Virus record (IMG/VR): IMGVR_UViG_3300042691_005476
Location: 1-26,863 of that record
Source of the DNA: a virus
Direction: 5' to 3' (one strand)
DNA length: 26,863 nucleotides
Made by a program: the position numbers and the translations under genes. This document shows positions 1 through 26,863 of this stretch, piece after piece; within the stretch, counting starts at the first letter, position 1; each line of letters begins with the position of its first letter. The notes beneath the pieces were generated by a model. That model was not told the origin of the DNA. It did no database searches and saw only the letters and a list, made by a program, of their open reading frames with translations.

Positions 1-2
1 GG

Positions 3-1052
3 GCGTATCAGGGAAGCCCTCATGACTTTGCCGCAGAGCGTCTTGTGCGCTTCCCCGACAAGACTGAGCAGTATATCGTCGGCACGCCTGATGTGCTTCC
101 TGACGTTCCTGAAGGCGCTGAGGTCATTCAGGACTTCCCGCTTGGCCGGATGAGGATGGACAAGATCGGCACGGGCGAGGGCGCGCAGGCTTATGGTCAT
201 GGGCTGTATGCGGCTGAACATGAGCCTATTGCTAAAGGTTATCGTGATCGTCTTAGTCGTAATGTCGCCATGGAAAAAGCAGGAACGCCAACTACATGGG
301 GCGATTACTTTACTGAAATTCAGTCTGCCGCGCAGGTTAAGGGGATACATCGGGACCAAGCCTATTCTATCGCTAAAAGTATTTCTGACTTAATGGACGA
401 GGGCAAGACCGCGCAATGGATTGCTAAAAACTACGAGCCGCCCACGGGTTTTGAGGATGCTTGGAACTCTGCGTTACAAGCCGCCTCTCTATACAAAAAG
501 AATAAAACCCCCGGCAAAGTTTACGAAGTCAACATCGCCGCCGACCCCAACACCTTCCTAGACTGGGACAAGCCGCTGAGTGAGCAGCCAAATCTTATGC
601 GCGCTTTGGGGAATTATGACCCAGAATACTATGTTGATTACGATGAAATAATAGACAAAGCGATGCGTTCTTTGCGGCCTGTTAGTGAGCCAACGGGAGA
701 AGATATTTATCGCGCACTAGGACATCCTAAGACTGCTACAAGGATGCTAAACACAATGGGTGTTCCCGGCATTAGGTATCTTGATGCTGGATCGCGCGGC
801 GTTGGTGATGGGACAAGAAACATTGTTGTCTTTGATGACAAGCTGATCTCCATCATCCGCAAGTACGGCATCGCAGGCGCATCCGCCATGCTGGGTTACA
901 ATCTGATGGAGCAGCTTGATCCCAAGCAGGCGCTGGCTGCATCCATGGCGGATCAGGAGTTCCAGTCCAGCAGGCCGCAGAGGTCTATGGGCGGCAACAA
1001 TTCGGTTTCAGGCGCGCTGAACGTGGCGCGCGGGCTGCACGGGGGTATGTGA
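3..1052 (+). CDS. ADP-ribosyltransferase-like polyvalent protein (5' truncated)
   Basis: The reading frame is open to the window edge, so the true start lies upstream; the GTG at 45 is inside the conserved domain and is not the start. The visible 349 residues begin AYQGSPHDF and continue with KIGTGEGAQAYGHGLYAAE, the N-terminal signature of the ADP-ribosyltransferase (ART) domain found in phage and mobile-element polyvalent proteins. Further family blocks follow: VYEVNI...FLDWDKPLSEQ in the middle and MGVPGIRYLDAGSRG...TRNIVVFDDKLI near the end. ART domains of this family are thought to modify host or competitor proteins using NAD, often after ejection with phage DNA; that role is inferred here. 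The Gly/Ser/Asn-rich tail looks unstructured. The TGA overlaps the ATG of the next gene (TGATG), suggesting translational coupling. Confidence 0.8.
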   Translation, partial: AYQGSPHDFAAERLVRFPDKTEQYIVGTPDVLPDVPEGAEVIQDFPLGRMRMDKIGTGEGAQAYGHGLYAAEHEPIAKGYRDRLSRNVAMEKAGTPTTWGDYFTEIQSAAQVKGIHRDQAYSIAKSISDLMDEGKTAQWIAKNYEPPTGFEDAWNSALQAASLYKKNKTPGKVYEVNIAADPNTFLDWDKPLSEQPNLMRALGNYDPEYYVDYDEIIDKAMRSLRPVSEPTGEDIYRALGHPKTATRMLNTMGVPGIRYLDAGSRGVGDGTRNIVVFDDKLISIIRKYGIAGASAMLGYNLMEQLDPKQALAASMADQEFQSSRPQRSMGGNNSVSGALNVARGLHGGM

Positions 1053-4000
1053 TGGCGGGTAAGGGCGACATTGTCGAGCAGGCGCTAAAGCTTCTTGCTG
1101 GCGGTGGTGATGATGCCGCCAAGAGGGCTTTTGCCAACACTCGCCTGAAGACGCCGCAGGGTGATCCCATGCGCCTTTATCATATGACGCCCGAAGACAT
1201 ATTTGAGTTCCGCGCATCGCCTGAGAACCGCAGCGGTCCTGCTGTATTCCTCAGTCCGTATCCTGACTTTCAACCCGCCTATCATCAGTCTGCGGAGCGC
1301 GGTCCTGCTGGCGAGTTGACAAGCAAGTTCAAAGAGGGTGCCAACGTCATGCCCGTCTATGCTGACGTTCGCAATCCGCTGGTGCTGGATCACCCGCGCA
1401 AGATCAAGGAGGCCGCCGCCAAGTATCAGGGTGGCGATCCCCAGTTCCCGCGCATCATTTCGCCTGAAGCCCGCGCCGCCATGGAGGCGGAGGGATATGA
1501 CGGCATCGTCTTCGGCGGCGACAATCCGATCCCCTATGGCGACAGGCCCATGGATGCGCGTCTTGGCTTTCAAGAGGGGCGCGGCGAGGAGTTTCTTGTG
1601 TTCGATCCCAAGCGTGTGAAGTCGGCCATCAGCAACACTGGCGAGTATGACTTTACAAACCCCGACATCACCAAGGCGGAAGGTGGGCAAGTGAGAGAAG
1701 GTTACGCTGGCAAAGGGCGTGTTGTTAAGAATAAAGTTGGAAGCATTGTTGACGCGGTAACGGGGCGCAGGCCAAACCGCGTCTTCCCTGAGCTTGCAAA
1801 GCGTTACCCTGAGGTAGTTCCGCCTGTTACGGCGTTTGATAAAAAGAAAGGCAAAGAATACTTAGCCAAGGACTTGTCCCCTGAGGCGCTGGCGGTTCAG
1901 AAAGCCCGTGATGTTATCCAGAAGGACATTGACGCTGGCTTTTATGACCCGTTTTTTGATGTAAGAGCGCGGGCAGACGTTGATCCGTCTGACTATCCCA
2001 GCACGGGCAAAACCATTGATGTTAAACCTGCGCGGCCTGAGACGCAGGCCAAGTACCGGGCTATGGCGTTTAACCCTGAGGGTCTTTCACGTTTGCGTGA
2101 AGGCTACGCTGCTGGCCTTGAGCAAAAGGACGTTGCTGAAAACTGGTACTTCATGAAGCAGCTTGAGGACAAGTTTGTTGAAGAATTTGGGCCTGAGGAA
2201 GGGCGCAAACAGTTCAAGGAACGTTTTGCAAAACCAATGGCGCTGACCACTGGCGGCGCTGACCCGACATCTAATCTTCTCATGTCCTATTATGGAAATT
2301 TTCTGCGTGAAAAAGGCTTGCCGATACCAAAGGCGGCCTATGACATGCCATTCCCGATTGGCGGGCAATTCGCATCTTCTAACATGGGCATGTTTGGTCG
2401 CAACATGGAAAAGGAACTGACGCCCGACAACCCGAAGCGGTTCAATTTCCAAAACAACTTTTTGGGCTACAAAGAGCCGACTATTGACGAGCAGATGTCG
2501 AAGGGCTTTGATCCCAAGCTTCAGATGCCGGAATGGTATGGCCCCTACGAAGAGGCCATCAACATGCTGGCCAGCGAGTACGATGTTGATCCGCGCTACT
2601 TCCAAGAGGTTACGTGGGCTGGTCTGAAGAGCAAGGGCAAGGGTGGCTATCAGGGCATGCCCATGATCCAGCATGTTAACGAAGCCATTGAACGCACAAG
2701 CCGCTTGACTGGCGTTCCGCCAGAAGAGGTTGTACGGCGCGGGCTGGTGCGCGCTGAAATGCCTATCTATGGCATGGCGGCCCCTGCTGGCGCGCTTGCT
2801 GTTGGCGCGATGGGCGATGACGCCGAAGAAGACATCGACAATGCCGTCCGTATTGCAAAGGGCGGCGGCGGTGGCTTTACCAAGCTTGTGCGGTCCCTGT
2901 TTGGCCCTTCGGAGAAAGAGGGGCTGGAGGCGCTGACCAAGGCGGGATCGGGTTACAAAGGTGTTCCCGGCAAGCCTAACACCGTCAAGCTGCCCGGTAT
3001 TGGCGAGGTTGAGGCCAAGCCTCTGCCGCCCCTTGAGCGGGCTGCCGAAGACTACATGAAGCGCCTTGGCAGGCCCGGTGAGCATGTCATCGATGTCTTC
3101 CAGCCGCTGGACGAGGATTTCGCCCGCCGCGTGGCTGGCGCATATGGCGAGATGAAACACGCCCCCACGGACCCGGAGGTCAAGCGCGCCTACGATGCGC
3201 TGGCTCAGGAGACGCTAGATCAGCTTGAAGCCGCCAAGCAGGCGGGCATCGACTTCAGCTTTATCCGTGGCGAGGACCCCTACAAGGCGTCTCCCGGCAT
3301 GGGCTACGCCGATCTGGCGGAGCGTGGTCACCTGTATGTCTTCCCGACCGATCAGGGCTTCGGCTCAGATGTTGCCTTCGACCCCGCGAACAACCCCTTG
3401 CTGAAACGCATTGGCCCGCTGGGTGACCTTGACGACGCGACGGTCAATGATGCCTTCCGCATCGTGCATGACCTGTTCGGCCACTATGGCCCCGGCAACC
3501 CGTTCTTCCGCGCGCCCGGTGAGGAGCGGGCATTCAAGCTGCATAGCCGCATGTATTCGCCGGAAGCGCGCCCCGCCATGGCGAGCGAGACGCGCGGCCA
3601 GAATAGCTGGCTGAATTTCGGCCCCTATGGCAGCTACAACCGTGGGGCCAACGCGGCTGAGACGATCTACGCTGACCAGAAGACGGGCATCATGCCGCCG
3701 TGGGCTTATGAGAAAGCTGACGGCGGCGCTATTGAGAATGCCCTGCGGATTGCAAAGGGTGGCGGCGGTGGCTTTGTACCGAAAGTCATTAAGGGTGGCC
3801 TTGAAGCGGTAGAAACTGCTCTGGGAAAATCAGCGCCTAACCTAAGCAACACCAGCCCAGAAATGCGTAACGCATATTTGCTCTCTAAAATGAAATCATC
3901 TGGGATTAACACTCCAGATGACGTTTGGAACAGGTGGCGGGATTATATGATGGCAAAGGCGGGGCCGAGAACAGGCTTGAGCAGTGTTGCCTCAAAGGAA

Positions 4001-5044
4001 AGTCATTCCAAGCAAGTAAATGACGCTATGCAACACTGGCGTCAGAAGGCAGACACTGCCGGAATGAGCGAACTTTTGAAGAATTGGGAAACCGTTCCGC
4101 GCGAAGACGGTTTTGTTGTTTCGGCTGGCCCGCGTGAAATTTTTCAAAAAGCTGGCATTCCTCCGACCATGGATAACATACAGGCTGCATATGATCTTTT
4201 GCGTTCGTTAAACAAAAAAGAGGATGGTTTTGCTCCGGGTGGTGCAGTGGACAACGCCATCCGCATTGCTAAGGACATTGGCGGCGCTGCGTCACGAGAT
4301 GACATGCGGGCAACATACGCTGCTTTGGAAGGCGCAAATGTTCCGCAAAGTGCGGCACCAGTAGAGCCGCGTTATCCCGATAAGGCCGCCCAACAAATGG
4401 CGGCCAAGAAAGCTTACATTGCAGAGGCAATGGGTGGCATAAAGCGTAATCGTGAGCCTACTGATCTTGAGTATTGGAATGCCATGCCGCCAGAGGAAAG
4501 GGCTGAGTTTGCTGCTCAATACCCAGAATTAGGGGAAGAAATGCGGATGGCAAGTGAAGTCAATTACTATGAAAATGCTCAACGGGCCAAAGCTTCTCAG
4601 CCGTACAGCGCCCAGTCAATGACGCATGATGCGTCTGTCCCGCGCACGGACATGAAGATTAACATGCCTCTGCTTGGCGGCGAGTATTCACTTGGTAGCG
4701 CACCGTATAATGTGGCCGAAGGGCTTCAGAGTATGGCCCAGAACGCATACGACTTCAAAACGATGCCGCTTTACTTCTCCGGGGCTGCCGCTCCTATTGC
4801 ATTGGGCATAGACGTTGCAGAAAGTCGTTTGAACGATGACCCGCTGGGGCTGGCGCTTAGTGCTGCTTTGACGCCTCAGACGGCGGCGGCGCTCAAGACG
4901 GCTGGTCGTTCTGCTCTTGGCTTTGCTCGCAGAAATCCAAAGGCAACCGCCGCTGTCATCGGCGCGGGATCGTATCTTTCTCCAGACGAGACAGAGGCTG
5001 ATCCTTTCGCTAACAAGGCGCTTGAACTGACAAGGGACTACTGA
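1052..5044 (+). CDS. Large multidomain polyvalent protein with ART-like and HDxxGH domains
   Basis: About 1330 residues. ATG 1052 is preferred (G-rich Shine-Dalgarno at 1041-1045); GTG 1049 adds one residue. Residues about 40-200 form a second ART-like domain: LYHMT with H44, and GEEFLVFDPKRVKSA with E179/E180 near its end. Residues about 260-580 match a phage domain I recognise by pattern (KRFNFQNNFLG near 462, TID at 477-479, FQEVTWAG around 521; possibly DUF7178). Residues about 660-890 hold a domain with FRIVHDLFGH (H806, H811) and ASETRGQNSW (E846), seen in other environmental phages without a firm function as far as I know. Residues about 1085-1330 end in hydrophobic Ala/Gly-rich helices. 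Copies of a 'DNAVRIAKGGGGGF' module (R600, R899, R1071) separate the domains. It is probably virion-associated or injected; that is inference. Confidence 0.75.
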   Translation: MAGKGDIVEQALKLLAGGGDDAAKRAFANTRLKTPQGDPMRLYHMTPEDIFEFRASPENRSGPAVFLSPYPDFQPAYHQSAERGPAGELTSKFKEGANVMPVYADVRNPLVLDHPRKIKEAAAKYQGGDPQFPRIISPEARAAMEAEGYDGIVFGGDNPIPYGDRPMDARLGFQEGRGEEFLVFDPKRVKSAISNTGEYDFTNPDITKAEGGQVREGYAGKGRVVKNKVGSIVDAVTGRRPNRVFPELAKRYPEVVPPVTAFDKKKGKEYLAKDLSPEALAVQKARDVIQKDIDAGFYDPFFDVRARADVDPSDYPSTGKTIDVKPARPETQAKYRAMAFNPEGLSRLREGYAAGLEQKDVAENWYFMKQLEDKFVEEFGPEEGRKQFKERFAKPMALTTGGADPTSNLLMSYYGNFLREKGLPIPKAAYDMPFPIGGQFASSNMGMFGRNMEKELTPDNPKRFNFQNNFLGYKEPTIDEQMSKGFDPKLQMPEWYGPYEEAINMLASEYDVDPRYFQEVTWAGLKSKGKGGYQGMPMIQHVNEAIERTSRLTGVPPEEVVRRGLVRAEMPIYGMAAPAGALAVGAMGDDAEEDIDNAVRIAKGGGGGFTKLVRSLFGPSEKEGLEALTKAGSGYKGVPGKPNTVKLPGIGEVEAKPLPPLERAAEDYMKRLGRPGEHVIDVFQPLDEDFARRVAGAYGEMKHAPTDPEVKRAYDALAQETLDQLEAAKQAGIDFSFIRGEDPYKASPGMGYADLAERGHLYVFPTDQGFGSDVAFDPANNPLLKRIGPLGDLDDATVNDAFRIVHDLFGHYGPGNPFFRAPGEERAFKLHSRMYSPEARPAMASETRGQNSWLNFGPYGSYNRGANAAETIYADQKTGIMPPWAYEKADGGAIENALRIAKGGGGGFVPKVIKGGLEAVETALGKSAPNLSNTSPEMRNAYLLSKMKSSGINTPDDVWNRWRDYMMAKAGPRTGLSSVASKESHSKQVNDAMQHWRQKADTAGMSELLKNWETVPREDGFVVSAGPREIFQKAGIPPTMDNIQAAYDLLRSLNKKEDGFAPGGAVDNAIRIAKDIGGAASRDDMRATYAALEGANVPQSAAPVEPRYPDKAAQQMAAKKAYIAEAMGGIKRNREPTDLEYWNAMPPEERAEFAAQYPELGEEMRMASEVNYYENAQRAKASQPYSAQSMTHDASVPRTDMKINMPLLGGEYSLGSAPYNVAEGLQSMAQNAYDFKTMPLYFSGAAAPIALGIDVAESRLNDDPLGLALSAALTPQTAAALKTAGRSALGFARRNPKATAAVIGAGSYLSPDETEADPFANKALELTRDY
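2852..2878 (+). repeat. Direct repeat copy 1 of the RIAK-GGGGGF linker
   Basis: A 27-base direct repeat inside the large polyvalent gene, encoding the IAKGGGGGF part of the linker. It matches 3749-3775 except for one silent C/T difference. The near identity of two copies 0.9 kb apart suggests recent duplication or homogenisation, and gives a possible site for recombination that swaps or deletes the domain between them. Confidence 0.8.
3749..3775 (+). repeat. Direct repeat copy 2 of the RIAK-GGGGGF linker
   Basis: Second copy of the 27-base repeat at 2852-2878, in the same frame and encoding the same residues. A third, diverged protein-level copy lies at about 4250-4285, where the DNA no longer matches closely. 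Confidence 0.8.
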
Positions 5045-5045
5045 C

Positions 5046-5468
5046 ATGGGCGGCACGAAGGGCGGCGGCAGCACAGGTTCCATGAATGCTTTTGCGCGGA
5101 ATACTGGCCCGCAGAACATGGGGTCACAGCCATCGACCAAGCAAGACATGCTTGTGCGCATGATGGGCAGCATGATGGGCATCCCTGCGTCCCGTCTTCC
5201 CGGCTACAATCAGTCTGGAACCGGATCAAAGGGCGCGCAGCAACCCCAACAGCCCGCCGCAGCGCTGCCGCCCATGCCGGAATACGTTAACTACCAGCAG
5301 ACGCCGTCCTATGGCACCCAGCCTGTCGGCCCATCGCAAGCCATTCTCGACTTCATGGGTGGGCAGTATGCGTCCGGTGGCTCCGTTAACGAGCGCTCAC
5401 CGGATGACGAGATCGCAGCCGCCTTGCGCATCGTCAGGCTTCTTGGCGGATCGGGTGATTTCGAGTAA
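5046..5468 (+). CDS. Small Gly/Gln/Pro-rich protein with a C-terminal ALRIV module
   Basis: 140 residues, not recognised as a named family. The start ATG lies one base after the stop of the polyvalent gene with AAGGGA upstream, so the two are probably co-translated. The N-terminal half is Gly/Ser/Met-rich and low complexity, followed by a Gln/Pro stretch (about 60-80). The C-terminus has SGGSVNE and then DDEIAAALRIVRLLGGSG (R128), a version of the linker module in the preceding gene. The predicted order is low. It may be a virion-associated or delivered partner of the polyvalent protein, but nothing shows a biochemical function. Confidence 0.65.
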   Translation: MGGTKGGGSTGSMNAFARNTGPQNMGSQPSTKQDMLVRMMGSMMGIPASRLPGYNQSGTGSKGAQQPQQPAAALPPMPEYVNYQQTPSYGTQPVGPSQAILDFMGGQYASGGSVNERSPDDEIAAALRIVRLLGGSGDFE

Positions 5469-5495
5469 GTTGCATCAAACCCACAGGAGACGGGC

Positions 5496-6884: not shown

Positions 6885-6891
6885 AACCGGG

Positions 6892-6953: not shown

Positions 6954-6958
6954 TTTGA

Positions 6959-6990
6959 GGGGTCAGCGAAAGCTGGCCCCTTTATCTTTT
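6959..6990 (+). terminator. Rho-independent terminator after the polyvalent block
   Basis: A nine-pair stem, GGGGTCAGC (6959-6967) with GCTGGCCCC (6972-6980), has one G-U pair and a GAAA tetraloop, followed by TTTATCTTTT. This is a textbook intrinsic terminator. It separates the polyvalent/low-complexity genes from the co-chaperonin and scaffold block. Confidence 0.85.
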
Positions 6991-7060: not shown

Positions 7061-7276
7061 ATGGTGCAAACCTACGATACTTACTGGCAGAAGATTTTTG
7101 CAAAGAGGCTTGGTGAGGCAGCGGAGCGCGAAAGCGAACGCATCATTGCAGGCAACGCGCAGGATTTTGCTGACTACAAGTTTCAGGCGGGCATCGTTCG
7201 TGGCCTTAACATCGCGCATGAACTAATTGGCGAAGTTAACGCTGAACTCAAGAAGGCAGAACAGGGAGAAAGTTAA
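7061..7276 (+). CDS. Small conserved phage protein upstream of the co-chaperonin
   Basis: 71 residues. The pattern AGNAQDFADYKFQAGIVRGL resembles a small helical protein common in tailed phages just before head genes (A-x-D-F/Y-A-x-Y-K/R...G-x-I/V-x-G-L); I know no firm function for it. No transmembrane segment is visible and it is predicted to be mostly helical and charged. The Shine-Dalgarno is weak. Its TAA shares one base with the ATG of the GroES-like gene (TAATG), indicating coupling. A head-assembly role is inferred only from position. Confidence 0.7.
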   Translation: MVQTYDTYWQKIFAKRLGEAAERESERIIAGNAQDFADYKFQAGIVRGLNIAHELIGEVNAELKKAEQGES

Positions 7277-7668
7277 TGCCATACATGCGTATGGAGCATT
7301 CCGACGACCCTGCGGAGGTAATCCGCAAGGAAATGGGCGACATCAGCGATATTGAGATTTTTCACAATCAGGTGCTGGTCGCGATCTACATCCGCCCGGA
7401 GAAGACCAAGAGCGGATTGTATCTTTCGGCGCAGACCCGTGATGAGGACAAGTATCAGGGCAAGGTCGGCTTGATCATCAAGAAGGGCGCTGATGCGTTC
7501 GTTGATGACACTGGCAAGTGGTTCAAGGGCGTCAATCTGGACGTTGGCGATTGGATTTACTTCAGGCCCAGCGATGGTTGGGCCATCACGGTTCACGGCC
7601 AGCTTTGCCGCATTCTGGATGACACTGACGTTCGTGGCCGCATCCCTGCGCCTGACGCCGTCTGGTAA
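7276..7668 (+). CDS. GroES-like co-chaperonin (Cpn10 family)
   Basis: 130 residues against about 97 for bacterial GroES. The Cpn10 core is recognisable: NQVLVAIYIRPEKTKSGLYL corresponds to the start of the beta-barrel and the mobile loop that contacts GroEL (GLYL in place of GroES GGIVL), then KYQGKVGLIIKKG, DVGDWIYFRPSDGWAITV and a closing CRILDDTDVRGRI. No GroEL gene is visible, so it would presumably work with host GroEL, as T4 gp31 does for its capsid protein. It sits directly before scaffold and capsid genes, which fits assisted folding of head proteins. GGGAGAAAG precedes the start. The extra N-terminal residues and an insertion around DAFVDDTGKWFKG account for the greater length. Confidence 0.85.
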   Translation: MPYMRMEHSDDPAEVIRKEMGDISDIEIFHNQVLVAIYIRPEKTKSGLYLSAQTRDEDKYQGKVGLIIKKGADAFVDDTGKWFKGVNLDVGDWIYFRPSDGWAITVHGQLCRILDDTDVRGRIPAPDAVW

Positions 7669-9952: not shown

Positions 9953-10864
9953 ATGGCTGTTAATCTCAGCGCAATTAAGGACCTTCTCCTCCCCGGCCTG
10001 CGGGGCATTGAAGGCAAGTACGAGCAAATTCCGTCTCAGTACGACAAGATTTTCACCAAGCACGAGAGCCGCATGGCGCTGGAGCGTACCGCTGAAATGC
10101 GTTACCTCGGCCTCGCGCAGCTTAAGACCGAAGGCGGCCAGACCGCTTTCGACAACGGCGCTGGTGAGCGTTATGTCTACAATCAGGAGCATACGGAAAT
10201 CGCTCTCGGTTACGCGATCACCCGCAAGGCGATTGACGACAACCTCTACAAGACGCAGTTCCAGCCCTCCAACCTCGGCCTGATCGAAAGCTTCAATCAG
10301 ACCAAGGAAATCTACGGCGCGAACGTCATCAACACCTCCACGACCTACAACGCGGCGGTGGGCGGTGACGGCAAGGCCCTGATCGCCACCGATCACCCGA
10401 TTGATGGCGGAACGGTTGCCAACCGCCCCGCGACTGACGTTGAACTCAACGAAGCGACCCTGCTTTCGGGCATGATCGCCATCCGTACCGCGTTCAAGGA
10501 TCAGGCTGGCCTGAAGGTCTTCGCCCGCGCCCGCAAGCTGCTGGTTCCCCCGCAGCTTGAGCCTGTCGCAATCCGCCTCACCAAGTCGGAACTGCGCCCC
10601 GGCACAGCGGACAATGACGTCAATGCCATCATCAGCACGAGCGGTGGTCTGCCGGAAGGCTACATGACCAACGACTTCCTGACGTCGGCGACGGCATGGT
10701 TCCTGCTCACGAACATCGACGGCCTCTCCTACATGGAGCGCGTCAAGTTCGAAACGGACATGCAGGTGGACTTCGTGACGGACAACCTGCTGGTCAAGGG
10801 ATATGAGAGATATTCCTTCGGCTATTACAACTGGCGCGCGATTTGGGGTTCCCTCCCCACCTAA
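9953..10864 (+). CDS. Major capsid protein
   Basis: 303 residues, preceded by GAGGAG. The pattern resembles Mu gpT-like/HK97-fold coat proteins: N-terminal LLLPGLRGIEGKYEQIPSQY, a central LGYAITRKAIDDNLY, KVFARARKLLVPPQLEPVA, and a C-terminal GYERYSFGYYNWRAIWG. The segment QAGLKVFARARKLLVPPQLEP is particularly typical of these coat proteins. Length fits an HK97-type coat without a large N-terminal delta domain, consistent with a separate scaffold upstream. It follows the small head protein by 15 bases. A nuclease gene lies immediately downstream. Confidence 0.85.
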   Translation: MAVNLSAIKDLLLPGLRGIEGKYEQIPSQYDKIFTKHESRMALERTAEMRYLGLAQLKTEGGQTAFDNGAGERYVYNQEHTEIALGYAITRKAIDDNLYKTQFQPSNLGLIESFNQTKEIYGANVINTSTTYNAAVGGDGKALIATDHPIDGGTVANRPATDVELNEATLLSGMIAIRTAFKDQAGLKVFARARKLLVPPQLEPVAIRLTKSELRPGTADNDVNAIISTSGGLPEGYMTNDFLTSATAWFLLTNIDGLSYMERVKFETDMQVDFVTDNLLVKGYERYSFGYYNWRAIWGSLPT

Positions 10865-10874
10865 GCGTGCAGTG

Positions 10875-11321
10875 ATGTCTGACGAGTTGAGGAAGCAAAA
10901 AGACAGGGAGCGCGCGGCAGCCTACCGCCGTGCGAACCCTGAAAAGGCCAAGGAAACAAGCCGCAGGGCAAATGCAAAGCGGCGGAAAGACCCGGCCATT
11001 GTTGTCTCAATCCGTGAGTACCAAAAAGAGTACCGGGACAAAAACCGGGAAGCTCTTGCGGCCAAGGAACGCGAACGGAAGTTCGGCATAACCCACGCGG
11101 AGTATGCCGAACTCCACAAGAACCAAGGTGGCGTCTGCGCCATCTGCAAGAAGCCTGAGACGGCAACGCGGAACGGCAAGGTGAAATCGCTCGCGGTGGA
11201 TCACTGCCACACCACAGGACGCATCAGGGGCTTGCTCTGCGCAGACTGCAACACTGGGATTGGGAAGCTGAAGGAAGACCGGAATATCTTCTTGGCGGCG
11301 ATCCAGTATCTGGACACCTGA
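10875..11321 (+). CDS. Recombination endonuclease VII-like nuclease
   Basis: 148 residues from ATG 10875 (GTG 10872 is an alternative); the frame is open further upstream but that part overlaps the capsid gene. A basic N-terminal half (about 1-69) precedes the nuclease core FGITHAEYAELHKNQGGVCA. Zinc ligand pairs C88-x2-C91 and C122-x2-C125 flank D109-H110-C111-H112, and ADCNTGIGKLKED follows. This is the His-Me/HNH fold of T4 endonuclease VII, which resolves branched DNA; many phage relatives act as free-standing mobile nucleases. Its position between two structural genes, with a weak ribosome site, suggests insertion. Whether it resolves junctions for packaging or homes is unknown. Confidence 0.85.
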   Translation: MSDELRKQKDRERAAAYRRANPEKAKETSRRANAKRRKDPAIVVSIREYQKEYRDKNREALAAKERERKFGITHAEYAELHKNQGGVCAICKKPETATRNGKVKSLAVDHCHTTGRIRGLLCADCNTGIGKLKEDRNIFLAAIQYLDT

Positions 11322-13313: not shown

Positions 13314-14009
13314 ATGACGACCAGCGGAACCTATAGCTACAACCCGTCCATCGGGGAGGTGGTTCTCTACGCCTTCAATCTCTGCCAGATCAGGTCCACA
13401 TCTCTGGCGGCGGAGCATCTGAACTCCGCGCGTCAGGCCATGAACATGATGCTCTCGCGCTGGAGCAACATGGGCGTGAACCTGTGGAAGGTGGACACCG
13501 AAACCGTCACGCTGATCGCAGGCCAGTCCACCTACTCGGTCCCCGCCGACACGGTGATGATCTTGGATATGTATGCGCGCACGCCGTCTGGCACGTCGAA
13601 CACCGACCGTATTATGATGCCGATCAGCCGCACTGAATATGCCAGCTACCCGAACAAGGCCCAGCAGGGCTTTCCTACCGTGTTCTGGTTCGACCGCCTG
13701 ATCAATCCGACCGTGACCATCTGGCCCGTGCCGGATGGCACTGGAAACCCCACGACCATCACCTACTACCGCGTGACACAAGTGCAGGACGCCAATCTTC
13801 CGGGCGGCGAAACCATCGACGTGCCGTACCGCTGGCTCGACGCATTTGCCAACGGTCTGGCCTACTATCTTTCGCGCATCTGGCAGCCGCAACTCACCGC
13901 CCAACTCAAGGCGGAGGCGGACGAGGCCTACACGATTGCCGCCAATCAGGACACCGAGAACGTCAGCGTTTACATTTCCCCGCAGCTTGGCGGCTATTTC
14001 AGGAGCTAG
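13314..14009 (+). CDS. Head-to-tail adaptor, P22 gp4-like
   Basis: 231 residues, with GGAGGG upstream. The helical N-terminus IGEVVLYAFNLCQIRSTSL...LNSARQAMNMMLSRWSNMGV and following LW...QSTYSVPAD, TIWPVPDG and PYRWLDAFANGLAYYLSRIW match tail accessory factor/adaptor proteins related to P22 gp4, which bind below the portal and close the filled head. The family uses a helical bundle with a beta insertion, which fits the predicted alternation here. A second adaptor-like gene is at 21888, so the two may form successive rings, or one may be a stopper. Confidence 0.65.
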   Translation: MTTSGTYSYNPSIGEVVLYAFNLCQIRSTSLAAEHLNSARQAMNMMLSRWSNMGVNLWKVDTETVTLIAGQSTYSVPADTVMILDMYARTPSGTSNTDRIMMPISRTEYASYPNKAQQGFPTVFWFDRLINPTVTIWPVPDGTGNPTTITYYRVTQVQDANLPGGETIDVPYRWLDAFANGLAYYLSRIWQPQLTAQLKAEADEAYTIAANQDTENVSVYISPQLGGYFRS

Positions 14010-15280: not shown

Positions 15281-19080
<3,800 letters not shown>

Positions 19081-19573: not shown

Positions 19574-19592
19574 CATTTCCGGGGAGGGAAAT

Positions 19593-20669
19593 ATGCGTTT
19601 CCACGTCGCGGCACTGCCGCACACTTGCGTCACGACCGAATATCTTAGCTGCGCCTACACCGCCAAGGTGCTGAACTTCTGCCGCATGATGAAGGACAGG
19701 GGCCACGAGGTCTTCCTGTACGGTGGAGAGCAGAACGAAGCACTGTGCGACGAGCATATCGTCTGCGTGAGCGAGGCGGACCGCGCAGCGCATGTCGGCG
19801 ATGGTCATTTCACCTCCGCCAGCTTCGACTACACCCTGCCGTTCTGGCGCAACGCCAATGCCAAGATGGCGGAGGAAATCAAGAAGAGGGCGCAGCACAA
19901 GGACTTCCTCTGCATCATTGGCGGCTACGCACAGAAGCCGATTGCTGACGCGCTGCCCAACATGATGGCTGTCGAGTTCGGCGTCGGCTATGGCGGCTCC
20001 TTCAGCCAGTACCGCGTCTTCGAAAGCTATGCGTGGATGCACCTGTGCTACGGCTCCGCCAAGGGCGGCGATCCGCACGGCGTGGACGGCAACTGGTGGG
20101 ACACTGTCATCCCCGGCTACCTCGACCCTGAGATGTTCCCCTTCAGCGCGGAGAAGGACGACTACTATCTGTTCATTGGCCGCCTCGTGGACCGCAAGGG
20201 CTACCGCATCGCCGCCGATGTCTGCTTCGATCTGGGCAAGCGCCTCGTCGTGGCGGGACAGGGAACGCCCCCTCTGGGGACGGAGTATGTTGGTGTCGTT
20301 GACCCGGTGACGCGCGGCAAGTTGATGAGCCGCGCCAAGGCGGTGTTCGTGCCGACCATTTACATCGAACCCTTCGGCAATGTTAACATCGAAGCGCAGG
20401 CCTGCGGCACGCCCGTCATCACCACGGACTGGGGCGCATTCACCGAGACGGTCGTGCATGGCGAGACGGGCTTCCGGTGCCGCACCTTCGGTGAGTTCAA
20501 GCGCGCAGCGGAGGCGGTGGAGAAGCTCGACCCGCACGCCATCAGGGAGCGTGCCGTTAACAAATACTCCCTCAAGGTCGTCGGCAAGCAGTACGAGGAT
20601 TATTTCGCCCGCCTTCTGCATATGTGGGAAGACGGGTGGTATGAGGGGAAAGTCTTCGGCAAGCAGTAG
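19593..20669 (+). CDS. GT4-like glycosyltransferase (GT-B fold)
   Basis: 358 residues with GGGGAGGG before ATG. The C-terminal Rossmann half is clear: YYLFIGRLVDRKGYRIA, KRLVVAGQG, SRAKAVFVPTIYIEPFGNVN and GTPVITTDWGAFTETVVHGE. E259-P-F-G-x4-E267 is the EX7E motif that contacts the sugar nucleotide in GT4 enzymes. The N-terminal half (LSCAYTAKVLNFCRMMKDRGHEVFLYG) fits the acceptor domain. It would transfer a sugar from a nucleotide donor; the acceptor is unknown. Candidates are host envelope glycans, to block superinfection, and phage fibre proteins. Its place directly after the fibre genes and before lysis genes makes the fibre attractive. No signal peptide is seen, so it is cytoplasmic. Confidence 0.85.
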   Translation: MRFHVAALPHTCVTTEYLSCAYTAKVLNFCRMMKDRGHEVFLYGGEQNEALCDEHIVCVSEADRAAHVGDGHFTSASFDYTLPFWRNANAKMAEEIKKRAQHKDFLCIIGGYAQKPIADALPNMMAVEFGVGYGGSFSQYRVFESYAWMHLCYGSAKGGDPHGVDGNWWDTVIPGYLDPEMFPFSAEKDDYYLFIGRLVDRKGYRIAADVCFDLGKRLVVAGQGTPPLGTEYVGVVDPVTRGKLMSRAKAVFVPTIYIEPFGNVNIEAQACGTPVITTDWGAFTETVVHGETGFRCRTFGEFKRAAEAVEKLDPHAIRERAVNKYSLKVVGKQYEDYFARLLHMWEDGWYEGKVFGKQ

Positions 20670-20693
20670 CATCTTTTCCACGACGAAAAGATG
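20670..20693 (+). promoter_or_regulatory. Perfect 9-bp hairpin at the entrance to the lysis cassette
   Basis: CATCTTTTC (20670-20678) and GAAAAGATG (20685-20693) are perfectly complementary with a 6-nt CACGAC loop. The hairpin begins right after the glycosyltransferase stop and covers the ATG at 20691, making that ATG a poor start and leaving the ATG at 20736 free. It may stabilise the upstream mRNA end or reduce read-through into lysis genes. There is no T tract after it. Confidence 0.55.
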
Positions 20694-20735
20694 AGTTACA
20701 AGACGCCGGGGAGAGAATTTGCTTTTGGAGCGGCC

Positions 20736-20978
20736 ATGGAGATCAACTTGCAAATCCTCTTCAACATTGGCGTTGGTGCCATATTTGCAATAGCCGGGTG
20801 GTTCTTCCGCCAGCTTTGGGACGCAACCACAGAGCTTCGCAAGGACCTGCACTCCATCGAAAAGGGCCTCCCGGTCAACTATGTGCGCCGCGAAGAGTTC
20901 ACTGAGATCATGCGCGAGATCAGGGGAATGTTTGAGAAGATACACGACAAGCTTGATGGCAAGGCAGACAAGATATGA
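20736..20978 (+). CDS. Small membrane/coiled-coil protein of the lysis cassette
   Basis: 80 residues from ATG 20736, chosen over ATG 20691 because GGAG lies 5 bases upstream, the upstream ATG is buried in a hairpin, and family members start M-x-I-N-x-Q. One membrane segment near the N-terminus (LFNIGVGAIFAIAGWFF) is followed by a charged amphipathic helix (WDATTELRKDL to the end) with LPVNYVRREEFTEIMREI and KIHDKLDGKADK. This is a familiar type next to phage endolysins, usually unnamed, with a proposed holin- or spanin-like role. It overlaps the amidase start by four bases (ATGA). Confidence 0.7.
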   Translation: MEINLQILFNIGVGAIFAIAGWFFRQLWDATTELRKDLHSIEKGLPVNYVRREEFTEIMREIRGMFEKIHDKLDGKADKI

Positions 20979-21409
20979 AGCGCGAGGCCACCAACAATAT
21001 CGTTCTGCACTGCGCCGCCACCCGCCCCAGTCAGAATGTCGGGGTCGCCGACATCAGGAAATGGCACAAGGAGCGCGGCTGGTCCGATATTGGTTACCAT
21101 TTCGTGATCCGGCGTGACGGGCGTGTCGAGCGTGGCCGCGCTGAAGACGAGGTCGGTGCGCACGTCGCAGGCCGTAACATCGACAGCATCGGCATTTGCA
21201 TGGCGGGTGGCCTCAACGAACTCACATGGAAGCCGGAAAACAACTTCACCATCCCCCAATGGGCCGCGCTTGAGAAGCTTGTCCGCTCGCTGACGATCAA
21301 GTATCCTCGCGCGAAAGTGCTTGGTCACCGGGACTTCCCCGGTGTGCAGAAGGCCTGCCCCTGCTTCAATGCGCGGGCGTGGGCGAAGAAACTGAAACTT
21401 CCTGTCTAA
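20975..21409 (+). CDS. Endolysin: N-acetylmuramoyl-L-alanine amidase, T7-lysozyme-like
   Basis: 144 residues, single Amidase_2/PGRP domain. It cleaves the bond between N-acetylmuramic acid and L-alanine in peptidoglycan. Zinc ligands are visible as H12 (NIVLHCAAT), H118 (LGHRDFPG) and C128 (KACPCF), matching T7 lysozyme H17, H122 and C130. Catalytic partners Y41 (DIGYHFVI) and K126 match T7 Y46 and K128. Length is close to T7 lysozyme (151). There is no signal peptide or membrane anchor, so release depends on a holin; a holin-like gene follows. Whether it also regulates an RNA polymerase, as T7 lysozyme does, cannot be told here. Confidence 0.92.
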   Translation: MKREATNNIVLHCAATRPSQNVGVADIRKWHKERGWSDIGYHFVIRRDGRVERGRAEDEVGAHVAGRNIDSIGICMAGGLNELTWKPENNFTIPQWAALEKLVRSLTIKYPRAKVLGHRDFPGVQKACPCFNARAWAKKLKLPV

Positions 21410-21428
21410 CAACAGAAGGGAAATGAGC

Positions 21429-21590
21429 ATGACGAAGGAAATGGTCTGGGGCGTTTTCCGCGCCGTTCTCGCTGCCGCTGGCGGCTACATTGTCGGCACT
21501 GGCATCGTTGACAATGCCACGATGAACGACATCATCGGCGCGGTCGGCATCCTCTTCGCAGCGGCTTGGTCGATCTGGTCTAAGAAGTGA
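21429..21590 (+). CDS. Putative holin (Pam3-gp28-like)
   Basis: 53 residues from ATG 21429, favoured over ATG 21423 because GAAGGGA at 21415-21421 lies 7 bases upstream. Two hydrophobic segments, VFRAVLAAAGGYIVGTGIV and DIIGAVGILFAAAWSIW, are separated by a short polar turn (DNATMN) and followed by SKK. The pattern W-G-x-x-R-x-x-L-A-A-x-G-G-Y...V-G...W-S-x-x-S-K resembles the Pam3-gp28 family of putative phage holins, recalled rather than searched. It would form inner-membrane lesions that let the amidase reach peptidoglycan. The stop overlaps the next gene's GTG by four bases (GTGA). Confidence 0.75.
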   Translation: MTKEMVWGVFRAVLAAAGGYIVGTGIVDNATMNDIIGAVGILFAAAWSIWSKK

Positions 21591-21817
21591 ACTGGCTTGA
21601 GATAGCCGCCATCATCATCCTCCTTCTGGGGATCGGTGCTGGCGGCTTTCTTGTGGCCCAGAGGCCGTCGTTCTGGCTCGGCCTCATCACGGTGACGATC
21701 AAGGCCGCGATCCCGGCCATCCTGAAGCGGAACCCGTTAGATGTCGAGGAACGGATGAACGACTGCATCCGCAGCGGCGGGCAATGGGATAATTTTCGCA
21801 AACGCTGCAAGAGATGA
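21587..21817 (+). CDS. Small membrane protein of the lysis cassette
   Basis: 76 residues starting at GTG 21587, overlapping the holin stop (GTGA), so probably translated by coupling. An N-terminal membrane segment (IAAIIILLLGIGAGGFLVA) is followed by a second moderately hydrophobic stretch (FWLGLITVTIKAAIPAI) and a soluble tail RMNDCIRSGGQWDNFRKRCK with two Cys. The family is not certain. It could be a holin partner or antiholin, or part of a spanin-like system, but no lipobox is seen. Confidence 0.65.
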   Translation: MNWLEIAAIIILLLGIGAGGFLVAQRPSFWLGLITVTIKAAIPAILKRNPLDVEERMNDCIRSGGQWDNFRKRCKR

Positions 21818-21887
21818 CGTCCCGGCCTTCACAGGCCACCCTAAGCTATGGTAAAACCACGCCGAACAAAGTTAACAGAGGCATGTC

Positions 21888-22601
21888 ATGCCGGGTTTGA
21901 CCTACGGAACGTACAAGACTGCTCTGGCAACTCTGTCTGTGGTTCCCGAAACGGACGCCAACTGGCTCTCAATTCTGCCGGATGCCATCGAATACGCTGA
22001 ACTGCGCATTTACCGCGATCTCGACCTCCTCTCGACCGTCAGCACGAACACCAGCTTTTCTACCACCGCAGGGGCGTCTAAGGTCGCCTTGACACAAGGC
22101 ACGTTCGTCACGCTCCAGAATGTTAACGTCATCACGCCCGCCGGAACATCGAACCCCGATTTGGGAACCCGCGTGCCGCTGCTCCCGGTGTCCAAAGAAT
22201 ACATCCAGTATTCTTGGCCCAGCATCACCAATTCTGCGGTTCCCGCCTATTTTGCCATGATCGATGAGCGGACGTTTTCTCTCGGCCCGTGGCCCGATGC
22301 CGCTTACACGCTGGAGATCATCGGGACGATCAGGCCCGCAACGCTGTCCTCGACCAACACCGAGACTTTCATCTCGCAGTACCTCCCCGATCTGTTCCTG
22401 ATGGCCTCCATGATCTTCATCAGTGGCTATCAGCGCAACTTTGGCCGCCAGAGCGACGACCCGCAGATGGCTCAGTCCTACGAGAGCCAGTACCAAAACC
22501 TCCTCAAGGGTGCGACGGTCGAGGAGTACCGCCGCAAATTCCAAGCCTCTGGCTGGACATCGTCGTCTCCATCCCCGGTGGCTACTCCGGGCAGGGGGTA
22601 A
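21888..22601 (+). CDS. Tail adaptor protein (gp4/tail-tubular-A-like)
   Basis: 237 residues; AGAGG lies 6 bases before ATG 21888. Key blocks are WLSILPDAIEYAELRIYRDL, the helical start typical of phage adaptor proteins, a beta core (LLPVSKEYIQYSWP, FAMIDERTFSLGPWP, TLEIIGTIRPA) and QYLPDLFLMASMIFISGY followed by a C-terminal helix. These fit podovirus adaptor proteins that link portal to nozzle (T7 gp11, P22 gp4). The nozzle gene follows after three bases, supporting the pairing. It is the second adaptor-like protein here besides 13314. A Ser/Pro tail ends the protein. Confidence 0.65.
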   Translation: MPGLTYGTYKTALATLSVVPETDANWLSILPDAIEYAELRIYRDLDLLSTVSTNTSFSTTAGASKVALTQGTFVTLQNVNVITPAGTSNPDLGTRVPLLPVSKEYIQYSWPSITNSAVPAYFAMIDERTFSLGPWPDAAYTLEIIGTIRPATLSSTNTETFISQYLPDLFLMASMIFISGYQRNFGRQSDDPQMAQSYESQYQNLLKGATVEEYRRKFQASGWTSSSPSPVATPGRG

Positions 22602-22604
22602 TCC

Positions 22605-25600
22605 ATGCCGCACAGCACGATCAAGCTCATTCCGGGCGTGGACACCAACAAGACGCCCACTCTCAACGAAACCGCCATCTCCTTCACCGATCTCGTCCGC
22701 TTCGTCCCCGACAGGACCGGGCTTGGCCTCGTGCAGAAGCTTGGCGGCTGGACCCGCTACATTTCCGGCACATTCTCCGCGCCGATCCGCGAACTCAAGG
22801 CGTGGAGCGATCTGGAATACACCAACTACCTCGCCATTGGCGGCGAGAGCGATGTGGGCGTTCAGGTCTACAAGCAGTCCGATGGATCGCTGACTGACGT
22901 CACGCCTCGCACCCTTATCGATGACGTGACCTCCAGCTTCGTCACGACGAGCGCCGCTCTTCCCTCGACATCGTCGCACACCGATGTGCGCGTGGCAACG
23001 TCTACGGAAGCCCTTGGCCCTGAGCTTGTAACCAACGGCAATTTTGCGACTGGCATTCAGGGGTGGACGGTCTTCGGTTCTGGCGCAACTCTGTCATGGG
23101 ATGCGATTAACCAGCGCGCGGAAGTGACGACGACCGCGCAGCAGCAGGGCTTGTCCACGACTGTTTCTTTTGTTTCCGGCGACACATATCTCGTTACCGC
23201 GACCATCACAAATGGTTCGTCTTCGTCGCGAACCTATCGCGCTGTGATGGGGACCGGGGTGTCAGACTTCGTCACAATATCTGCTGGTGCAACGCAAAAC
23301 GTATCTTTCACTATTCCGGGCGCGACATCCTCGACCCTGACATTGAGGACTGGTGGAACATTTACGCCGGACCCCAATGAGAAACAGTATTTTGATAACA
23401 TCTCCGCAAAAAACGTCCGTTTCCCTACGACCTACAACAATGGCACCAGCGGCGTGGGAGCCACGTTGACCAATGCAGGGCCACTGGCCGCCATTCAGAT
23501 TGATGGCGTCTCTCTTGCCGTTTCAAACCGTGTTCTGGTTCAAAATCAGGTCACGCCTGCACACAACGGCGTCTACTCGGTCACCACCGTGGGCGATGGC
23601 TCAACGGCATGGGTCCTGACGCGCGTCACTGATTTTGATGCGTGGGGGGCTGGCGACATTGAGTATGGCGCGCTGTTCTTCGTGTCTGAAGGCACGGTCA
23701 ACGCCAGCCGCACATACTATTGCTCCAACAGCACGACTGTGACGGTTGGGACCACAGCGATCACATTTGCTCTGGCGGCTGGCCTTAGCACAGGCTCTGG
23801 CGCGTCTGCGGTTTCCGTATACACGCCCTTCGTCCCAAGCTCCGCCTCCTATGTGTTCTTCCCGACCATTGTCAATCTGGGCAACGTCAATCTTCTCGGC
23901 CCCTACGACATCACAACAATCGGTTCTGGCTTCTTCACGATAGACGTCCCGTCCATCCTGACGCCGATCTCCAAGATCACAGCAGTGACGGCTGGCTCTG
24001 ATCGCACGGTCACGATCCGCTTTCCGGTAGCGCACACATTCTATGTTGGGCAAAGCATCTACGTTGCTGGTGTTGATACGGTGAGCTTCGATGGCTCATT
24101 CACCATCACCTCCGTCACCGACGTGACCATCACCTATACGCAGACAGGCGTCTCGACTGCGGCAACATCCTATGGCGGAACGGTCAATGCCAAGGTGAAC
24201 TTTGGTGGTGTGCCGCCCGAATTTACGACGGTCGCCGGATCGTCCACGGTAACGGTCGATCTGGTGAACCATGGTTATTCGGTGGGCGATACATTCAATG
24301 CCACCGTGTCCACTACGGTCGGCGGTGCGGTCATCTTTGGTCTCTACACCATCAACAAGATCAACACGGCAGATCAATTTGAAATCTCGACCGCACTCCC
24401 GGCCACGGGCAGCGCCACGGGCTATGAAAACGGCGGTGCGATCCGCATCGAAAGCTTTGTCAGCATCCAGAGCATCGATCAGGGCGACAATTATGTCTAT
24501 GGCGGCGGCGTCTACAACGAAGGCCTTTACGGAAGTGGCTTTGTCCCGGCGGCCAATGACGGCACTGCCATTACGGCGACAGACTGGTCGCTCGACAATT
24601 GGGGGTCGATCCTCGTTGCTGCTCCCAAGAATGGTGCCGTCTATTACTGGCAGCCCGTAGGCAGTGCCATCCAGAATTTGGGCTACATGCCGAACGCCCC
24701 CGTCTACAATGCGGGCATTTTCGTTGCGATGCCGCAGCGCCAAGTCATTGCCTTCGGTTCGTCCTTCGGCTCCATTCAGGACCCGCTGCTGATCCGCTGG
24801 TGTGACCTTGAGGATTTTACGGTGTGGGAAGGAACCGCCTTCAATCAGGCGGGCAGCTACCGCATCCCCACAGGCTCCAAGATCGTGTGGGCCACGCAGG
24901 CTCCGCAGCAGGCCCTGATCTGGACCGACCTCGACGTCTGGTCGATGACCTATATCGGCCAACCCTACATCTACGGCTTCAACAAGATCGGCGCGAACGC
25001 TGGCCTGATCTCGGCCAAAGCTGCGGGGCAAATGGGCGGCGTCGTCTACTGGATGAGCCAGAAGCAGTTCTTCCGCTTCGGCGGCAACGGCGTGGAGCCT
25101 ATCCCTTGCCCGGTCTGGGATCAGGTGTTTCAGAATTTCTTCCCCGGCGTTGACGGGAACGGTAATCCGTACACGGATCGTATCCGCTGCGCAGCCAACA
25201 GCCAGTACAACGAGATCACTTGGTACTTCCCGGCGCACTACACCAACGACATTGATCCCGCCACGGGTCTGGCGCTGGATGCGCAGCAGATCGGGACTGG
25301 TGAGGTCAATGCGTATGTCAAATACAATGTGGTCCTGAACCAGTGGGATTACGGCTACCAGCACCCTGACAATGCCTCCGTTCTTGTTGGTAGGACGGCA
25401 TGGATCGATCAGTCGGTTCTCGGTCCGCCCATTGGCGCTGCGGCGGTCACCAGCGTCGTCGGCCAGACCAGCGGTTTCTTCGTCTACCAGCACGAAACCA
25501 GCAACAATGCCGATGGTGTTGCCATGCAGTCTGGCTTCACGACGGGCTACGCTGCTCTGTCGGACGGCAACGAGATGATCTTCATCGATCAGGTCTGGCC

Positions 25601-25847
25601 CGACATGAAGTGGGGTTTTGTGGATGAAGCCAAGACGGCGGAGGTCAAGATCACCTTCTTCGTCACCAACTATCCCGGCGACACGCCGATTGAATATGGA
25701 CCCTACACGGTGACGCAGCAGACGCAGTACCTGAGCGTCCGCATGCGCGGGAGGCTGGTCGCCATCGGCGTCTCCAGCACCGACAGCGGAAGCTTCTGGC
25801 GCATCGGCGCGATCCGTTACAGGTTCCAACCGGACGGAAAATACTGA
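22605..25847 (+). CDS. Large tail nozzle/hub protein (P22 gp10- or T7 gp12-like) with inserted domains
   Basis: 1080 residues, with AGGGGG before ATG. The N-terminus (ETAISFTDLVRFVPDR, LGGWTRYISGTF, LKAWSDLEYTNYLAIGGESD) and the C-terminal half (APKNGAVYYWQP, VAMPQRQVIAFGS, IRWCDLEDFTVWEGT, GVVYWMSQKQFFRFGGNGVE) match beta-propeller-like nozzle/hub proteins of short tails. Such proteins are usually about 470-800 residues, so the middle is expanded: residues about 140-275 look like a CBM4/9-type jelly roll (ELVTNGNFATGIQGW), about 280-405 a tail-associated beta domain (LVQNQVTPAHNGVYSVTT), and about 458-617 two FCCH-like repeats. The inserts could contact host glycans during adsorption. The assignment as nozzle is strong; sugar binding is inference. 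Confidence 0.75.
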   Translation: MPHSTIKLIPGVDTNKTPTLNETAISFTDLVRFVPDRTGLGLVQKLGGWTRYISGTFSAPIRELKAWSDLEYTNYLAIGGESDVGVQVYKQSDGSLTDVTPRTLIDDVTSSFVTTSAALPSTSSHTDVRVATSTEALGPELVTNGNFATGIQGWTVFGSGATLSWDAINQRAEVTTTAQQQGLSTTVSFVSGDTYLVTATITNGSSSSRTYRAVMGTGVSDFVTISAGATQNVSFTIPGATSSTLTLRTGGTFTPDPNEKQYFDNISAKNVRFPTTYNNGTSGVGATLTNAGPLAAIQIDGVSLAVSNRVLVQNQVTPAHNGVYSVTTVGDGSTAWVLTRVTDFDAWGAGDIEYGALFFVSEGTVNASRTYYCSNSTTVTVGTTAITFALAAGLSTGSGASAVSVYTPFVPSSASYVFFPTIVNLGNVNLLGPYDITTIGSGFFTIDVPSILTPISKITAVTAGSDRTVTIRFPVAHTFYVGQSIYVAGVDTVSFDGSFTITSVTDVTITYTQTGVSTAATSYGGTVNAKVNFGGVPPEFTTVAGSSTVTVDLVNHGYSVGDTFNATVSTTVGGAVIFGLYTINKINTADQFEISTALPATGSATGYENGGAIRIESFVSIQSIDQGDNYVYGGGVYNEGLYGSGFVPAANDGTAITATDWSLDNWGSILVAAPKNGAVYYWQPVGSAIQNLGYMPNAPVYNAGIFVAMPQRQVIAFGSSFGSIQDPLLIRWCDLEDFTVWEGTAFNQAGSYRIPTGSKIVWATQAPQQALIWTDLDVWSMTYIGQPYIYGFNKIGANAGLISAKAAGQMGGVVYWMSQKQFFRFGGNGVEPIPCPVWDQVFQNFFPGVDGNGNPYTDRIRCAANSQYNEITWYFPAHYTNDIDPATGLALDAQQIGTGEVNAYVKYNVVLNQWDYGYQHPDNASVLVGRTAWIDQSVLGPPIGAAAVTSVVGQTSGFFVYQHETSNNADGVAMQSGFTTGYAALSDGNEMIFIDQVWPDMKWGFVDEAKTAEVKITFFVTNYPGDTPIEYGPYTVTQQTQYLSVRMRGRLVAIGVSSTDSGSFWRIGAIRYRFQPDGKY

Positions 25848-25859
25848 TGAGGGCGGACC

Positions 25860-26231
25860 GTGGCAAACATTGACGATCTCGTAACTGTCCAGAAGAACGG
25901 CGTCGTCGCGATCAATGATCTGACGGCATCGCTCAATTCCTTCCGCGCCCTCTACGAGAGCTTCGTCGGGAACCGGACGGCGGTGGGCATCACCGACGAC
26001 AGCCTGATCTACACCGGGGCCGGAAGGCTCGTGAACGTGGCTGTGACCGCCGGGACTGCGGGTGGCACCGTGCATGACGCCGCCTCCGTGGCGGACGCGA
26101 CATCCGCCAACACGATTTTCGTCCTGCCGACCACGACAGGCCTCACGCAAGTCAACATGCCGTTCTTTGACGGCCTCGTCATCAACCCCGGAGCGTCGGT
26201 CACCGTCGCCGTGACATACTCGGAGAGCTAA
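25860..26231 (+). CDS. Small tail-associated virion protein
   Basis: 123 residues from GTG 25860, with GAGGGCGG upstream. The N-terminus MANIDDLVTVQKNGVVAIN and a helix (LTASLNSFRALYESFVG) precede a beta-rich region with GRLVNVAVTAGTAGG, TIFVLPTTTGLTQVNMPF and GASVTVAVTYSES. Small proteins of this type recur after nozzle genes in related phages, without a defined function. Its first 12 bases equal those of the collagen-like fibre gene. It might be a minor tail component. Confidence 0.65.
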   Translation: MANIDDLVTVQKNGVVAINDLTASLNSFRALYESFVGNRTAVGITDDSLIYTGAGRLVNVAVTAGTAGGTVHDAASVADATSANTIFVLPTTTGLTQVNMPFFDGLVINPGASVTVAVTYSES

Positions 26232-26232
26232 G

Positions 26233-26703
26233 ATGGAAAAGGGGTCCAAGACCATCTCCAAGGCGCTGGCGCTCGCCAAGAAGGCCCCGCAGCCCGCCAC
26301 GCCCATCGGCGGAGCGAGCAAGCTGCACACAGGTGCGATCAAGGCCCCCGTGGCCGGGAGGACGGATCACCTCCCGATGCACGTCCCGTCAGGCTCCTAT
26401 GTCATCCCGGCGGACATCGTTTCTGCCATCGGCGAGGGCAACACCGAACACGGCTTCGACATCATCGACCACATGGTGAAGGAGCGCATGGCCGCTGGCG
26501 GCGATGTTAACGAGGCCGACGAGGCCAACCCGGTCGCCATCGTCGCGGCTGGCGGCGAGTATGTGATCCCGCCCGGTGCCGTGAGAGGCTTTGGCGGCGG
26601 CGATCTGGACGCGGGCCACAAGGCTTTGGACGAATGGGTGAAGGCTGAGAGGGCAACCACAATTGCCACCCTCAAGAAGCTTCCGCCGCCGAAGAAAGAC
26701 TGA
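26233..26703 (+). CDS. Conserved phage protein with duplicated GxYVIP motif
   Basis: 156 residues, start one base after the previous stop. LHTGAIKAPVAGRTDHLPMHV and GDLDAGHKALDEWVKAERATTIATLKKLPPP are typical of an unnamed phage family encoded after tail genes. Two units align without gaps at an offset of 54 residues: G54-S-Y-V-I-P...V63...G67-E-G69...D79 and G108-E-Y-V-I-P...V117...G121-G-G123...D133. The N-terminus is basic and probably flexible. No catalytic motif is obvious. A virion-associated or regulatory role is conceivable. Confidence 0.7.
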   Translation: MEKGSKTISKALALAKKAPQPATPIGGASKLHTGAIKAPVAGRTDHLPMHVPSGSYVIPADIVSAIGEGNTEHGFDIIDHMVKERMAAGGDVNEADEANPVAIVAAGGEYVIPPGAVRGFGGGDLDAGHKALDEWVKAERATTIATLKKLPPPKKD

Positions 26704-26720
26704 GTTCAATGGAGGGAAAC

Positions 26721-26863
26721 ATGACAGAGGAAATTTACGTTCGCACCGCAGTTCCGGCTGACGAGGAGGGCATCATGCACCTCGCCCGCCTTGTTAACGG
26801 CGAGAACGGTGTGTTCAAGATGAACGAGCAGAAGGTGCGCGACATGGTGCGCCCGTCGCTCTA
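26721..26863 (+). CDS. Probable GNAT-family acetyltransferase (3' truncated)
   Basis: ATG 26721 has GGAGGGAA upstream; the frame runs off the window after 47 codons. The visible YVRTAVPADEEGIMHLARLV and GVFKMNEQKVRDMVRP match the first strand and helix of phage GNAT domains (VRxA-x-x-x-D-x-x-x-I-x-x-LA). The acetyl-CoA-binding motif would lie beyond the window, so the family call is provisional. GNAT genes near tail genes are common in phages and may modify host or virion proteins. Confidence 0.55.
   Translation, partial: MTEEIYVRTAVPADEEGIMHLARLVNGENGVFKMNEQKVRDMVRPSL

Follow-up and report, generated by a model that had tools for sequence, protein, structure and literature searches.

The stretch of viral DNA considered here (hereafter the window) comprises 26,863 bp, the whole of the IMG/VR virus record IMGVR_UViG_3300042691_005476, and is part of a P22/Pam1-like tailed phage; the record has no end repeats and is thus probably a fragment. 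The window contains no copy of GANTC, the motif marked by the alphaproteobacterial methylase CcrM, and about twenty other palindromic recognition sites are missing with it. In all likelihood these losses were imposed on a virulent phage by orthodox type II restriction enzymes met in succession, a HinfI-like one among them; the hosts of the phage are probably Alphaproteobacteria that bear CcrM. The missing GANTC would then be one trace among many left by the DNA-cutting defences that its ancestors had met.

All four forms of the motif (GATTC, GAATC, GACTC and GAGTC) have a count of 0 in the window, whose GC content is 59.5%, and this bears out the complete absence claimed in an earlier note on this DNA. 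The comparison with Markov and codon-preserving models that the note had proposed gives expectations of 97 copies with independent bases, 104 under a first-order Markov model, 83 under a second-order model and 44 at maximal order. Synonymous-codon shuffling of 29 genes, which cover 95% of the window, yields 46.2 ± 5.5 copies (minimum 29 in 1,000 shuffles), and codon shuffling within genes yields 38.3 ± 5.0 (minimum 23 in 300) when a collagen-like ORF is left out, as its repeats could distort codon shuffles. The Markov and codon models differ in their expectations and all agree on the main absences; overall, the codon-preserving nulls predict 38-48 copies.

A bias in base composition, codon usage or mutation therefore has next to no chance of accounting for the absence. 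Host chromosomes are likewise somewhat poor in GANTC, as such a bias would have it, but no codon-preserving shuffle falls below 23 sites, and both GATC (153 copies in the window) and GTNAC occur at or above expectation. Close relatives, moreover, retain the motif at aligned positions. In pairwise alignments with relatives that are 75-83% identical, 38 instances of GANTC fall at such positions, sites common to several relatives being counted more than once, and none is kept in the window, compared with 22-65% of control short palindromes in the same alignments.

Joint loss of palindromic type II sites

GANTC does not stand alone. Among the palindromic type II sites in the REBASE set shipped with Biopython, 26 of the 98 that are testable are eliminated from the window, against 4 of 318 asymmetric sites, all four of which overlap eliminated palindromes. 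When the collagen-like ORF is omitted, 21 of 91 palindromic and 4 of 306 asymmetric sites count as eliminated (Fisher P 3e-11, a value that is only a guide, because many eliminated sites overlap or nest and the enzymes are fewer than 26). These lists depend on their thresholds, namely an expected count of at least 8-9 and an observed count of at most 3-5% of the expected one. Avoidance is thus limited to palindromic type II sites and does not extend to asymmetric ones, the pattern by which orthodox type II avoidance is recognised. Observed over expected counts are 0/94 for RCCGGY, 0/76 for GDGCHC (which combines GKGCMC, GRGCYC and GWGCWC), 0/74 for CCWGG, 0/47 for GANTC and 0/35 for CYCGRG. 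A scan of palindromic words, degenerate positions included, adds RGATCY, SAGCTS, CGGCCG, CCGCGG, ACRYGT, CGATCG, GTCGAC, TCCGGA and CTGCAG to the words with 0 copies, and one copy of GGCGCC remains; the same scan finds no eliminated motifs in five codon-shuffled copies of the window. The abundance of GATC, from which the earlier note had argued against a general avoidance of similar words, was therefore a misleading guide, and an avoidance particular to GANTC is refuted by the 26 eliminated sites.

Restriction would explain both the breadth and the completeness of these losses. Each unmodified site would be a place at which a host enzyme could destroy incoming DNA, and, from the way in which restriction works, every site would bear its own cost, so that purging would be expected to go to completion. 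Several points weigh against successive type II restriction as the explanation. The enzyme specificities are read from absences alone, the overlap between motifs makes the independent enzymes fewer than the eliminated sites, and certain eliminated motifs (SAGCTS, CCGWCGG) have no counterpart in the REBASE copy used. A GANTC-cutting enzyme was not identified in any candidate host, no search with a GANTC-nuclease query having been made. In addition, GANTC is the short palindrome most often eliminated in the set of related records, which leaves room for a contribution of CcrM beyond restriction.

The loss of SAGCTS has a sharp boundary, with WAGCTW and WAGCTS kept, in the window and in records L091-L093, L102, L103, L089, L076, L080, L228, L251 and L258; in L236, L246 and L262, CAGCTG is kept and the rest of SAGCTS is lost. 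No enzyme recognising SAGCTS is present in the REBASE copy used.

Site sets that differ between lineages

Relatives of the window were found by capsid and portal, and many of their records are fragments. Repeating the count in related phages, as the earlier note had also suggested, shows GANTC anywhere between 0 and about 1 of expectation, depending on the lineage. The nearest annotated record, MW202675, is a complete, circular genome of 61,219 bp from Manatee Spring with an 87% identical capsid, and it holds 2 copies of GANTC against about 206 expected; a shorter record (L002, 4,574 bp) matches part of the window at 100% identity. MW202675.1 (L081, L082) is labelled Myoviridae, yet its annotation includes head-to-tail connecting and phage stabilisation proteins as in P22-like podoviruses.

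In a survey of 32 short palindromes across the capsid-search records of 10 kb or more, the only near-absent words are GANTC (8 records), GTAC (5), CCGG (4), GATC (2) and AGCT (1). Single records provide AGCT at 0/54 (L105) and GATC at 0/38 (L133) and 0/56 (L184). In the portal tree, a clade of ten (L227-L233, L237, L245 and L247) is without CCGG and has GANTC at about 0.16-0.5 of expectation, and its sister clade of eleven has low GANTC (0 to 0.26) and keeps CCGG, partly reduced. Some relatives have lost half of the motif: GAWTC is at 0/29 and GASTC at 15/17 (observed/expected) in L042, with 0/26 and 12/11 in L285, while GASTC is at 0/20 and GAWTC at 12/32 in L259, with 0/19 and 15/47 in L280. 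CcrM methylates all four GANTC forms, so losses of GAWTC only or GASTC only speak for enzymes that discriminate at the central base. A regulatory role for the GANTC copies left over in relatives was considered and rejected, as several are located within HNH-type homing-endonuclease-like genes or structural genes and they share no common position.

Several records bear host labels that may be in error. Planktothrix phage Pag-Yong1 (L089, OL906435.1, positions 1-50000, GC 68%) has GANTC at 0/153 and GTAC at 0/68, and the records MinM2 and Pra-JY27, which go under other cyanobacterial names, agree in length (65,014) and in capsid match; the cyanobacterial hosts stated for the three may be wrong, an associated bacterium being the real host. 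Two further contigs, one binned as Bacteroidia (L177, GANTC 0/32) and one as Planctomycetaceae (L110, 1/30), look like mis-binned free phages.

Close members differ in which restriction sites they are missing, and the family thereby amounts to a readable record of the enzymes of its hosts. Such fingerprints of site loss could aid the host assignment of uncultured phages and expose doubtful host labels, and they would predict uncatalogued type II specificities, for example SAGCTS, whose joint loss in several lineages is sharply bounded.

Candidate hosts, CcrM and methylation

A genome scan places relatives of the window in cultured isolates of Rhizobium, Boseaceae, Rhizobiales and Acidisoma (capsid identity 71-76%), as well as in a Bosea bin (79%). 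The highest identities belong to metagenome bins of various taxa, where mis-binning is probable, and weight is therefore put on the cultured isolates. Of the seven host-genome relatives, five sit on contigs 204-882 kb long and are for this reason taken as integrated; the contigs of the other two measure 28 and 62 kb. GANTC stands at 0.27-0.37 of expectation in the host-genome relatives and at 0.27-0.44 in the host chromosomes, and Caulobacter and Roseobacter members keep it at about 0.3-0.4. The number of eliminated motifs per 20 kb is 3-26 in free phages of the close family, as opposed to 0-4 in host-genome relatives and chromosomes. From this contrast we infer that the window phage is virulent. 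A methylase of CcrM type, with a RAMA domain, is encoded in all eight candidate host genomes, which answers the earlier note's call to look for ccrM in predicted hosts, and the hosts of the window phage are probably CcrM-bearing Alphaproteobacteria.

These figures suggest two causes of GANTC scarcity that can be told apart, a mild depletion that is common with CcrM-bearing hosts and a complete loss of the restriction type. Since the orphan CcrM methylase of Alphaproteobacteria marks GANTC, something linked to it may produce the milder depletion (about 0.35) of chromosomes and prophages. The further drop from about 0.35 to 0 in the lineage of the window would reflect an encounter of its ancestors with a HinfI-type enzyme that cuts GANTC.

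A different explanation is avoidance of CcrM/GcrA cell-cycle signalling, in which GANTC on many phage copies would titrate CcrM/GcrA or misregulate phage promoters and so be selected out. The CcrM-type methylase in eight of eight candidate hosts, the GANTC-poor chromosomes and prophages of these hosts (about 0.3-0.4 of expectation) and the first place of GANTC among the short palindromes eliminated in the family all agree with it. It is nonetheless improbable, because elimination extends equally to about twenty unrelated type II sites, so that GANTC is not singled out, and because some relatives have lost only GAWTC or only GASTC, a distinction that CcrM does not make (the window is without all four forms). 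GANTC also persists at 0.16-0.5 in the Caulobacter and Roseobacter members, the prophages and the clade that lacks CCGG, and a titration cost, which would shrink once few sites are left, should stop short of zero. As sole cause, CcrM signalling is ruled out by the central-base-specific losses together with the many other lost sites, and it is not needed to account for the loss of GANTC. Of the two interpretations offered in the earlier note, restriction is thus supported, since orthodox type II sites are lost as a set that includes GANTC, and CcrM signalling is left unsupported in view of the half-motif losses and the lineages that keep GANTC.

Restriction and CcrM might also be connected. In a particular version of the restriction explanation, solitary GANTC nucleases are protected against by the host's own CcrM, an essential orphan methylase thereby being paired with a lone nuclease. 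The presence of CcrM-type genes in all eight host genomes is compatible with this arrangement, and a precedent has been proposed in PMC3488263, where putative separated type II systems are described in four orders of alpha-Proteobacteria with CcrM-like protection as the probable route. That work, however, terms its own predictions unproven, no such lone nuclease was found here, and an ordinary linked GANTC system would leave an identical trace, all of which makes the arrangement a tentative possibility. Rather doubtful is the wider proposal that CcrM also serves as the protecting part of a defence in Alphaproteobacteria, with lone GANTC nucleases reading CcrM marks as self and virulent phages of this family recording the pressure as complete loss. 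Beside alphaproteobacterial CcrM-like plasmid genes, no nuclease is annotated in the regions opened, and a ribonuclease HII adjoins. In annotated regions opened from lactic and staphylococcal bacteria, the CcrM-like plasmid genes belong to operons that hold two methylases and a type II nuclease, which we take to be GATC (DpnII-like) systems.

Modification of its own DNA by the phage was considered as well and rejected. The N6/N4, C5 and Dam-type methylase families (PF01555, PF00145 and PF02086) have no match in the window, a fragment, or in the complete MW202675, nor in most of the GANTC-free relatives checked. Of the relatives checked that are strongly poor in GANTC, only L068 has a match to any of the three families in its record, a C5 DNA methylase (G017:C1:1741-2607, - strand); the record of L056 carries an N6/N4 methylase.

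Gene content and comparison with known systems

The genes of the window named here all lie on the + strand. An ORF of 335 aa (45-1052) with a weak match to phrog_873, a phage endolysin/head-packaging family, is followed by a large protein of 1331 aa (1049-5044) with an ART-PolyVal (ADP-ribosyltransferase of polyvalent proteins) domain (PF18760, E 3e-15). A GroES-like co-chaperonin (7276-7668), typical of the capsid module of this phage, precedes the major capsid protein (9953-10864), the anchor for finding relatives. The Endonuclease VII-like nuclease at 10803-11321 (PF02945, E 1e-24), a possible mobile gene, is also free of GANTC; it matches the PADLOC REase_II model too (5e-8), and the Pfam match is preferred as its name. 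Further along are a structural, tail-adaptor-like protein (13314-14009; phrog_12985, phrog_399), the collagen-like repeat protein (GPTGPTG..., 874 aa, 15281-17905), which is probably part of a tail fibre, a glycosyltransferase group 1 (19593-20669), an N-acetylmuramoyl-L-alanine amidase or endolysin (20975-21409) and a virion structural protein (22605-25847; phrog_3287, E 6e-53).

Site avoidance in phages has been described by Rusinov et al. 2018 (PMC6286503) as a matter of orthodox type II sites, above all in non-temperate dsDNA phages. The window resembles the phages of that study in that palindromic type II sites are wholly lost and other types little affected, most strongly outside temperate phages, and the contrast in motif loss between free and integrated members matches the extreme avoidance reported there for non-temperate phages. 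It differs in that about twenty sites are lost at once in one fragment and that sister lineages have lost different sets; GANTC is not mentioned in the main text of that study. Phage-encoded CcrM-like methylases, for example in Ochrobactrum phage vB_OspM_OC (PMC7139368), represent another way in which alphaproteobacterial phages deal with GANTC: phages of this type methylate the motif, whereas the window and MW202675 drop the sites and have no match to the three methylase families.

The closest precedent for GANTC itself comes from the pelagiphages (PMC9516812, Microbiome 2022), since the available part of that source reports depletion in about half of 33 phages, clustered by clade, with restriction as a possible cause. 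Pelagiphages and the window thus share a depletion of GANTC by clade in phages of Alphaproteobacteria, but the former are marine and mainly Autographivirinae, and no other motif is discussed in that part of the source. Two Pelagibacter members of the capsid family of the window, HTVC023P and HTVC027P, are not depleted in GANTC (0.92 and 0.87). Because GANTC is one of many lost sites in the window, restriction is favoured here. Depletion of GANTC in phages of Alphaproteobacteria has thus already been published, and what the window and its relatives add is the breadth of the loss and its switching between sister clades.

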